From the NCBI GenBank assembly GCA_013390745.1, contig JACASX010000001.1:62001-126000 (forward strand): 64,000 nt of DNA, written 5' to 3'. Of the stretch, positions 3,230 to 5,000 are shown piece after piece; the first letter of the stretch is position 1; each line of letters starts with the position of its first letter. The notes below the pieces were generated by a model. It was not told the origin of the DNA. It saw nothing but the letters and a program-made list of their open reading frames with translations, and did not search any database. The translations under genes and the position numbers were made by a program. Origin of the DNA: Marine Group I thaumarchaeote (GTDB lineage: Archaea; Thermoproteota; Nitrososphaeria; Nitrososphaerales; Nitrosopumilaceae).

Positions 3230-3303
3230 GCCGCCCTAGCTCAGCGTGGTAGAGCGTCGGACTGTTAATCCGTTGGTCGTCAGTTCAAGTCTGACGGGCG
3301 GCG
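3230..3303 (+). tRNA. tRNA-Asn (anticodon GTT)
   Basis: A complete cloverleaf can be folded. The acceptor stem GCCGCCC (3230-3236) pairs perfectly with GGGCGGC (3296-3302), with discriminator G at 3303. The D stem GCTC/GAGC, the T stem GTCAG/CTGAC with loop TTCAAGT, and an anticodon loop CTGTTAA with GTT at 3264-3266 are all present. The first anticodon-stem pair (3257/3273) is a T-T mismatch. There is no intron and CCA is not encoded. The gene lies 65 bases after L6. Confidence 0.96.
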
Positions 3304-3306
3304 CCT

Positions 3307-3336
3307 AATATTTCTAAATTCGAATTTAGAAATATT
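3307..3336. repeat. 30-bp perfect palindrome, copy 1
   Basis: A perfect inverted repeat with half-site AATATTTCTAAATTC, starting four bases after the tRNA-Asn gene. An identical copy lies at 4556-4585. As RNA it would form a 15-bp AU-rich stem with almost no loop. It could be a processing or termination element, a protein-binding site or a small dispersed repeat. The exact identity of the two copies argues against chance. Confidence 0.9.
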
Positions 3337-3411
3337 GATCGATTGAACCTAAATGGTGTATGGAATTAGACTGTAACGATCTAATAGATGATCGCATATT
3401 AGTAATAATGC

Positions 3412-3418
3412 AGGAGGT
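3412..3418 (+). promoter_or_regulatory. strong Shine-Dalgarno site
   Basis: AGGAGGT lies five bases before the ATG at 3424. It fixes the start of the downstream zinc-finger protein and stands out because many genes in this window lack a recognisable ribosome-binding site and are probably leaderless. Confidence 0.8.
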
Positions 3419-3423
3419 TTACA

Positions 3424-3678
3424 ATGGCCAGAACTAAAAGGGCCAATCGTTATTGTGTTGATTGTGGTTCTAGGTTAGTTTACTACCCACGTTTATCAAA
3501 TCCAAAGGCTCCCAATGAATATAGGGTACTAGTTTATGCGTGTCCAGATTGTAGTAATGATTTTGATAGACCAAAAATGTTCTCAATAAAGAGAAACCAG
3601 GTTGAAAATCCTCTTGAAACGGTAGAAATTGAGATAAAACAAGTACAAAAACAACTTCAAAATAATCCAAAAAAATAA
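3424..3678 (+). CDS. small zinc-finger protein, unknown function
   Basis: An 84-residue protein with two CxxC pairs, CVDCGSRL at about residues 12-19 and CPDCSNDFDRP at about 39-49, which probably bind one zinc ion as a zinc ribbon. A coiled, Gln- and Lys-rich tail follows. The start is set by a strong Shine-Dalgarno sequence. The next gene begins ten bases after the stop, so the two may be co-transcribed. I do not recognise a named family. DNA or RNA binding is possible but not shown. Confidence 0.8.
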   Translation: MARTKRANRYCVDCGSRLVYYPRLSNPKAPNEYRVLVYACPDCSNDFDRPKMFSIKRNQVENPLETVEIEIKQVQKQLQNNPKK

Positions 3679-3688
3679 CAAAGTACGT

Positions 3689-3907
3689 ATGGAACCTGAA
3701 AGACAAAGAAGTAATTGGTGGTATCTCTTACCGATCTTTCTAGGAATAATTGGTGCTATAATTGCATATTTCGCATTAAGAAATGATGATCGGCAAAAGG
3801 CAAAAAATTGCCTTTATCTTGGGCTAATATTGGGTGCTATAGGAATCTTTTTTCAGATTTTATTTGCAGAAATTCCAATTGAAGAACAATTTGGTGTAAA
3901 TATCTAA
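3689..3907 (+). CDS. small membrane protein, two TM helices
   Basis: A 72-residue protein with an N-terminal WWYLLPIFLGIIGAIIAYFA helix, a charged loop RNDDRQKAKN, and a second helix LGLILGAIGIFFQILF. This layout is common among conserved thaumarchaeal small membrane proteins of unknown function. It starts ten bases after the zinc-finger gene and probably shares its transcript. Confidence 0.75.
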   Translation: MEPERQRSNWWYLLPIFLGIIGAIIAYFALRNDDRQKAKNCLYLGLILGAIGIFFQILFAEIPIEEQFGVNI

Positions 3908-4251
3908 AAATTTCCAAAATAATGCATACAAGGGGAATTATCCAATTTCATGCGTAAATGTTCAACCCCACCTATAGATCAAGTCATTTACGAATAATGT
4001 GATTTTATCAAAAACAGTGATTTTAGTGGGGGGTTGAGCATTTGTTCGTGGATATACGATCCAAACACAAAAACACCCTGCTGGACCATATACAAACCGG
4101 TCATTGTTTTTTGCTAGGAATAAACATTCAACCCCCCCTTTTTTTATGAAAAAACATGATCGAAGATGAAATTTTTGTCAAAAAAAGACAGTAATTAAGC
4201 AAAAATTGATGACTAGAGCTACATAAGACACAATGTTTTAGGGGGAAAATA
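3908..4251. other. 344-bp intergenic region with repeated C-rich motif
   Basis: No convincing ORF is seen. The region holds three related sites: AAATGTTCAACCCCACC (3956-3972), its imperfect inverse complement GTGGGGGGTTGAGCATTT (4026-4043), and AACATTCAACCCCCCC (4123-4138). The first two can pair across about 50 bases. A short inverted repeat CGTAAATG/CATTTACG (3953-3960 and 3985-3992) lies between them. Such C-rich runs are striking in AT-rich DNA. The region could carry a structured leader, a small RNA or binding sites ahead of the basic protein gene. Confidence 0.55.
4240..4245 (+). promoter_or_regulatory. Shine-Dalgarno-like purine run
   Basis: AGGGGG lies six bases before the ATG at 4252 and can pair with the 3' end of 16S rRNA. 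It supports that ATG as the start of the basic protein and suggests a transcript with a leader rather than a leaderless one. Confidence 0.6.
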
Positions 4252-4482
4252 ATGGCAACATCTAAAGCAAAACGTAGTGCTGCTGCTAAAAAGGCTGCAC
4301 GTACGAGAAAAAGAAACGCTGCCGCTAAAACTGCAAAAAGAAGTGCAGCTGCAAGGCGAAGAAAGCGCTCTACCGGTGGTAAGAAGAAAGGCGGAGCCAA
4401 GAGAAAAGCACCTAAGAGAAAAGGCGGAGCCAAGAGAAAAGCACCTAAGAGAAAAGGCGGCGCTAAGAAGCGAAAAAGATAA
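4252..4482 (+). CDS. histone H1-like Lys/Ala/Arg-rich basic protein
   Basis: A 76-residue, extremely basic protein built almost only of Lys, Arg, Ala and Gly. It starts MATSKAKRSAAAKKAARTRK and ends in repeats of GGAKRKAPKRK. It resembles the lysine-rich tails of eukaryotic histone H1 and bacterial H1-like proteins, which bind DNA or RNA through charge. There is no histone fold. The last part is encoded by 33-bp tandem repeats. It has its own leader and a T-rich downstream terminator, so it is probably monocistronic. A role in nucleoid packing is inferred from composition only. Confidence 0.8.
   Translation: MATSKAKRSAAAKKAARTRKRNAAAKTAKRSAAARRRKRSTGGKKKGGAKRKAPKRKGGAKRKAPKRKGGAKKRKR
4390..4475 (+). 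repeat. 33-bp tandem repeat in basic protein gene
   Basis: Units start at 4390, 4423 and 4456. The first two are identical over 33 bp and the third is partial and diverged. Each unit encodes GGAKRKAPKRK, so copy-number change would lengthen the basic tail in 11-residue steps without breaking the frame. Confidence 0.9.
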
Positions 4483-4504
4483 GCAATCTTTTACGTTGAT
4501 AGCC

Positions 4505-4520
4505 CCTTTTTTATTTTTTT
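4505..4520 (+). terminator. T-rich transcription terminator
   Basis: Two closely spaced T runs begin about 20 bases after the stop of the basic protein. Archaeal RNA polymerase terminates at such T tracts on the non-template strand without needing a hairpin. The 30-bp palindrome starts a further 35 bases downstream. Confidence 0.5.
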
Positions 4521-4555
4521 AATTAAATCTAAGAAGACTTACTGCCTTAACATGT

Positions 4556-4585
4556 AATATTTCTAAATTCGAATTTAGAAATATT
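4556..4585. repeat. 30-bp perfect palindrome, copy 2
   Basis: Identical in all 30 bases to the palindrome at 3307-3336. Here it lies between two converging genes, the basic protein (+) and a PPOX-family enzyme (-), and seven bases after the stop codon of the latter. Both copies are therefore 3' of a transcription unit, which fits a termination or RNA-end role. Confidence 0.9.
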
Positions 4586-4592
4586 GTAAATC

Positions 4593-5000
4593 TTACCCTT
4601 GATTCATGCTAATTGAAGGCAAAATGTATACATGCCCAGGCTTAATTTTAAAGATTATACGTTTTTCATTAATTCTTTTAAATGGATATTTTTCCAAATT
4701 CATGTATTTCTTGGCTAATTGATCAGCATGAGTATAATCATAATCTGGAATAATTTCTATGACTGTACCCCTAATGGTAGTCATATTAAGAGGATTATCA
4801 TGAGCCACTACACATACTGCTACACGTGAATCATGTAATACGTTTCTATGTTTTATTCTGCCTTCAGCAGTATTTACCAAAATATGACCATCCTGGTAAT
4901 CACCCCAAACAGGGGTAAGTTGAGGGGAACCATCTAAATTGATTGTTGCAATAAAAATAAGATTTTTTTCCTGAAATAACCTCTCGACTTTTTGATCCAT
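4593..5000 (-). CDS. PPOX-class flavin/F420-dependent oxidoreductase
   Basis: A 135-residue split-barrel protein of the pyridoxamine 5'-phosphate oxidase superfamily. IATINLDGSPQLTPVWGDYQ, followed by GHILVNTAEGRIKHRNVLHD and VAVCVVAHDNP, is the usual pattern. Archaeal members of this short type often use coenzyme F420, and thaumarchaea make F420, so F420 dependence is likely but cannot be shown here. The substrate is unknown. It stands alone and points toward the palindrome at 4556. Confidence 0.85.
   Translation of the reverse strand: MDQKVERLFQEKNLIFIATINLDGSPQLTPVWGDYQDGHILVNTAEGRIKHRNVLHDSRVAVCVVAHDNPLNMTTIRGTVIEIIPDYDYTHADQLAKKYMNLEKYPFKRINEKRIIFKIKPGHVYILPSISMNQG

Follow-up and report, generated by a model that had tools for sequence, protein, structure and literature searches.

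The terminus of the E. coli chromosome is organised by MatP/matS together with ZapB, through sites dispersed over hundreds of kb, and RTP/Ter of Bacillus and Tus/Ter are fork traps, the Ter sites of B. subtilis being paired. Ammonia-oxidising archaea, which rank with the most abundant microbes on Earth, use ESCRT-III-related proteins to divide. Archaeal chromosome dimers are resolved by XerA at dif (PMC2958812), a site defined as 28 bp long with two 11-nt inverted repeats and a 6-nt spacer (PMC8371274). Cortez et al. described Thaumarchaea as being without xerA and as possibly using another tyrosine recombinase, and archaea were reported to be without FtsK (PMC2958812). Archaeal partition systems include SegAB and AspA-ParBA (PMC5120986). 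Here, comparative sequence analysis gives good support for a conserved array of sites, of a protein-binding type, at the terminus of ammonia-oxidising archaea. No earlier description of this site array was found in the open-access literature searched, the coverage of which is incomplete.

Two identical palindromes in a Marine Group I thaumarchaeote

The window, that is, the whole stretch of 64,000 nucleotides analysed, comes from a 1.08 Mb MAG of the family Nitrosopumilaceae. An earlier note on this window had described two identical, perfect 30-bp palindromes at 3307-3336 and 4556-4585, each just after a 3' end. The exact match was confirmed, and the full extent of identity between both copies is 32 bp (TAATATTTC...GAAATATTG). 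The placement was also borne out. Site 1 (3307..3336, no strand assigned; conserved unit 3308-3335) starts 2 bp past the end of tRNA-Asn(gtt) (3230..3305, plus strand), the conserved, syntenic left flank at the end of the ribosomal-protein operon, and lies 102 bp upstream of a gene for an 84-aa zinc-ribbon-like protein (3424..3678, plus strand), for which zinc-ribbon matches were weak only; the same relative position is occupied in many Nitrosopumilaceae. Site 2 (4556..4585, no strand assigned; conserved unit 4557-4584) lies 7 bp past the stop codon of a PPOX-type (PNPOx_N) gene (4593..5000, minus strand; PF01243, E 4e-13), in the convergent gap between this conserved right flank and a gene for a 76-aa Lys/Ala-rich, histone-H1-tail-like protein (4252..4482, plus strand), and almost all relatives that share the synteny have it at this place, immediately 3' of PPOX. 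The duplication had been judged unlikely to arise by chance, and 100 dinucleotide shuffles gave no palindrome match, even at three mismatches. When the whole genome was scanned at up to three mismatches, only these two copies were recovered.

The zinc-ribbon-like gene and a gene for a 72-aa predicted small membrane protein (3689..3907, plus strand) are conserved neighbours within the family, while the Lys/Ala-rich gene between the sites is variable cargo, being present, absent or replaced among relatives. Also between both sites, a separate repeat, TCAACCCC, occurs with G/C runs in three copies, one of them inverted, at window positions 3962, 4030 and 4128; its conservation is limited to close relatives, namely G002 and, in part, G007. 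At two loci of other genomes, L068 and L074, a DUF2299 gene between the sites is inverted relative to the remaining genomes, and at L074 the Lys-rich gene is inverted too.

Distribution of the motif

What is conserved among relatives is a 28-bp unit with the consensus ATRTTTCWAAAYTCGARTTTWGAAAYAT derived from 281 sites, a symmetric logo and an 11-6-11 layout. It was found in 26 of the 31 genomes of the genus, usually in two copies separated by 0.6-1.4 kb; the remaining five genomes are incomplete. Across a phylum sample of 398 genomes, all 63 Nitrosopumilaceae (here f1) carried 2-5 copies, at one locus with few exceptions, and the 28-bp version of the motif was present in all four genomes of a second family (f2) and all six of a Nitrososphaeraceae-type family (f3). 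The copies of one cluster span about 0.6-10 kb. The other 325 genomes of the phylum gave only single chance-like matches, in five outgroup genomes, the one genome of a fourth family (f4) gave none, and a reversed-pattern control gave near zero matches. The copies sought beyond the window were thus absent from the genome itself and found in its relatives at one locus, and the dispersed small repeat family that the earlier note had considered was rejected since copies are confined to a single locus per genome.

The same core was recovered from a collection of named genomes in Nitrosopumilus, Nitrosarchaeum, Nitrosotenuis, Nitrosotalea, Nitrosopelagicus, Nitrososphaera, Nitrosocosmicus and Nitrosocaldus; these named carriers are ammonia-oxidising archaea. 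Scattered core matches in unrelated bacteria within this collection mostly lacked the outer AT pairs. A mobile element or att site was rejected as well: the exact degenerate pattern was absent from viral contigs, the protein family f23 (see below) was absent from plasmid and phage records, and the sites are conserved across families. As a separate observation, the Deltaproteobacteria MAG ALJrbin.12 (L154, L169, L177, L184) carries several copies of an unrelated palindrome, TTTCGAAATTCGAATTTCGAAA.

The sites resemble protein-binding DNA rather than an RNA element

Both palindromes follow a 3' end, and as RNA they would form hairpins of -12 and -9.8 kcal/mol (z -2.9 and -4.3), in keeping with the transcription terminator or RNA-processing element that had been suggested for them. 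This reading is nevertheless highly improbable. The stem is not followed by a T-run, no terminator-like or Rfam match was obtained at the sites, some sites lie upstream of genes, and a terminator gives no reason for the location at the terminus described below. Moreover, the central TCGA, which would be the loop of an RNA hairpin, is nearly invariant across sites, and the two halves are largely independent, the outer positions of the half-sites varying nearly independently and three inner positions co-varying modestly. An RNA element was thus rejected by Rfam search, folding and half-site independence.

Pairs of sites 59-82 bp apart are common among the genomes, with spacing peaks at 60, 69-71 and 80-82 bp. 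These close pairs are in phase with the DNA helix (R=0.81 at a period of 10.5 bp for 49 de-duplicated pairs, a value reached by 0 of 20,000 uniform draws and still inflated by relatedness). Because the halves are nearly independent, the TCGA is invariant or nearly so and the pairs are helically phased, the sites fit a protein dimer on DNA, with adjacent dimers on one face, rather than an RNA stem. A site for a palindrome-binding protein, the remaining suggestion of the earlier note, was thereby supported by the symmetric motif, the near-independence of its halves and the helical phasing of pairs.

The locus lies opposite cdc6

Each of the 16 single-contig chromosomes tested has the sites at a folded distance of 0.397-0.481 (mean 0.454) from cdc6; these chromosomes are not independent of one another, and three families with different neighbours agree. 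Within f1 the order of the syntenic block is ribosomal-protein operon, tRNA-Asn, sites, PPOX and purine genes, the genes between the sites being variable. In two f1 genomes, G340 and G395, the ribosomal-protein flank is gone and the sites are still opposite cdc6, and among f1, f2 and f3 the genes beside the sites differ while the position opposite cdc6 holds.

Repeats resembling archaeal origin boxes were seen beside cdc6 in the two genomes inspected, as two copies of GCCTAGACTGGAAATTAGGGGGTA in G001 (at a contig junction, L304 end / L293 start) and three copies of CTCCAGTGGAAGTGATGGTGTC in G226 (L078 142-256). The flanking genes converge on this locus: over 400-kb stretches, the cumulative coding-strand value reaches its maximum within the cluster in G132, at a site in G419, and at a distance from the sites of 1 kb in G001 and of 18 kb in G395. 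GC skew extremes occur near the sites in several genomes with a sign that differs between lineages, a minimum lying near the sites in G001 and G395 and a maximum at a site in G419; the identity of the terminus is thus based on cdc6, the origin boxes and gene orientation. A single mapped origin for N. maritimus is cited in PMC4010727. Taken together, the opposite cdc6, the origin-box-like repeats, the gene convergence and the skew extremes give good support, at the level of genome sequence, to the locus being the replication terminus region. An origin at the locus was rejected on the same grounds, as cdc6 is opposite and flanked by the origin-box-like repeats (in two genomes) and genes converge on the sites.

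A position at the terminus, gene convergence on the sites and clustered inverted repeats of ~28 bp with pairs 60-82 bp apart could also be seen as the marks of a replication fork barrier, at which f23, the candidate binding protein described below, would arrest forks as in RTP/Ter of Bacillus or Tus/Ter of E. coli. We consider such a barrier unlikely, as the site logo is symmetric, whereas Ter polarity needs asymmetry, and f23 showed no detected homology to either RTP or Tus.

A candidate binding protein, f23

The gene beside the sites in f2 and f3 encodes a protein of ~110 aa, the family f23; an adjacent ArsR-like HTH gene had been considered as the binder, and the gene next to the f2 and f3 sites is f23 instead. 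Exactly one match to f23 was found in each of the f1 (63/63) and f2 (4/4) genomes and in five of the six f3 genomes, and none in the other 325 genomes of the phylum. Searches with f23 against Pfam (above cut-off), NCBIfam, PDB sequences and PDB folds gave no match, and in the structure search its fold did not match that of any DNA-binding protein. The AF2 model is all-helical (pLDDT 89, pTM 0.54), and its last two helices flank an invariant GYSYPTI..RI motif, so that the C-terminal end is predicted to form a helix-turn-helix-like pair around this motif. A variable residue of the motif tracks bases 4-5 of the half-site (Ser with TA, His with AG or AT, Tyr with AA or AT), a correspondence that is confounded with lineage.

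On these comparisons, f23 is the likely binder of the palindromes. The co-occurrence of f23 and the sites amounts to one clade-level event, and this is the main weakness of the assignment beside its basis in sequence. In most f1 genomes f23 lies ~11 kb from the sites, and the genome studied here has it outside the window, on contig C1 at about 54.7-55.1 kb. Two genomes, G340 and G395, have the f23 gene far from the sites, which are still at the terminus; this arrangement is compatible with action in trans, yet weakens the linkage of f23 to the sites.

The f2 and f3 loci that carry f23 usually have a palindrome whose centre lies 33-46 bp ahead of the f23 start, and in some f1 genomes a palindrome overlaps its start codon, other f1 genomes having a degraded version or nothing visible there. 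No intact palindrome was seen at the f23 promoter in most f1 genomes, that of the window included. These promoter sites, together with site 1 upstream of the zinc-ribbon gene, might suggest ordinary operators: f23, or another regulator, would act through them on its own gene and on a few neighbours of the sites, and conserved synteny alone would account for the position at the terminus. This is improbable, since site 2, like its orthologues, is flanked by convergent 3' ends, a setting in which a promoter would not be expected, and the position opposite cdc6 is kept while the neighbours differ among the three families.

A possible link to cell division

A simple motif test placed a CdvB-like ORF close to f23 in 18 of 20 loci, most often in tail-to-tail orientation, and in a nineteenth locus (G132) such an ORF lies about 2.3 kb from f23. 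Its match is to the CdvB1/B2 family, with E 1e-37 to 1e-40, and falls short of the curated NCBI cut-off. In a genome of N. maritimus size, the CdvB near f23 is 216 aa long with a single cysteine, Cys123, matching Nmar_0816. Nmar_0816 is a CdvB paralogue that polymerises in yeast (PMC3684127).

We envisage the palindromes as cis-acting binding sites that mark out where replication ends in ammonia-oxidising archaea. Dimers of f23 would probably bind them, and in many genomes f23 would probably also use this palindrome to regulate its own gene. Since a CdvB gene is the usual neighbour of f23, the f23-DNA complex may act in chromosome segregation or division, a link drawn solely from gene neighbourhood; it might hold or position the terminus and couple it to the Cdv (ESCRT-III) machinery, by analogy to MatP with ZapB in E. 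coli. We regard the case for a terminus site array bound by f23 that couples the terminus to segregation and division as evenly balanced, and the exact role of the complex, as anchor, fork barrier or in dimer resolution, is one that we can only infer. The site array may be how ammonia-oxidising archaea mark the chromosome end for segregation, and together with its candidate protein it opens to concrete testing the question of how these archaea complete replication, separate chromosome dimers and coordinate segregation with cell division.

Comparison with known systems

With its dif-like 11-6-11 layout and terminus location, the array could be a dif- or res-like dimer-resolution site, at which some recombinase would recombine sister chromosomes, the Nitrososphaeraceae using a serine recombinase encoded at the locus. 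The reported absence of XerA in Thaumarchaea (PMC2958812) and the inverted inter-site genes at L068 and L074 are in keeping with this. A serine recombinase of ~200 aa (PF00239 + HTH_7) does occur at the f3 site locus (L285-L289, L292, L117, L129), single in most genomes, and 6/6 f3 genomes have one such gene at the sites or close to them. Against this, no serine recombinase was found in any of 15 f1 genomes tested, and no tyrosine recombinase (PF00589, E<=0.001) in G001, G221, G155 or G395, which are 97-99% complete; recombination by these enzymes is thus not the shared function of the sites. XerA/dif was rejected since these four carriers gave no PF00589 match, and the serine recombinase was set aside as a general binder, being at the locus in f3 only. 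Furthermore, 2-5 close symmetric copies would delete or invert the intervening DNA, and f23 has no recognised recombinase domain. Dimer resolution is thus, in our view, an improbable function.

The likeness to XerA/dif is one of size, layout and place, both being 28-bp inverted repeats with the 11-6-11 arrangement and, in 16 of 16 chromosomes, a terminus location. The palindromes differ in being present in 2-5 copies as opposed to a single copy per chromosome, in the perfect symmetry of their centre and in that a tyrosine recombinase was not detected in carriers. RTP/Ter and Tus/Ter share with the array clustered inverted repeats of ~30 bp at the terminus, with paired copies ~60 bp apart; the palindromes are symmetric and hence, unlike Ter, non-polar, and f23 is unrelated to these systems by sequence or fold. 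The partition systems SegAB and AspA-ParBA likewise have a small site-specific protein that binds palindromes, one of which is upstream of its own gene. In contrast, the sites described here are far from the origin, f23 has no sequence or fold match to solved structures in the PDB, SegB, AspA and ParB included, and no ParA-type partner was seen beside f23.

MatP/matS offers palindromic terminus sites, a dedicated small protein, the counterpart of which would be f23, and possibly a link to the divisome. It differs in that no MatP homology was found for f23, that the archaeal sites form one cluster of 2-5 copies within a few kb and that division is by Cdv and not FtsZ. It is conceivable, although we hold this tentatively and think it somewhat doubtful, that a dedicated system for terminus segregation exists in ammonia-oxidising archaea, in which a new family of DNA sites and a new protein family tie the terminus to ESCRT-III division, and which has no relation to Xer/dif, MatP, fork traps or ParABS.
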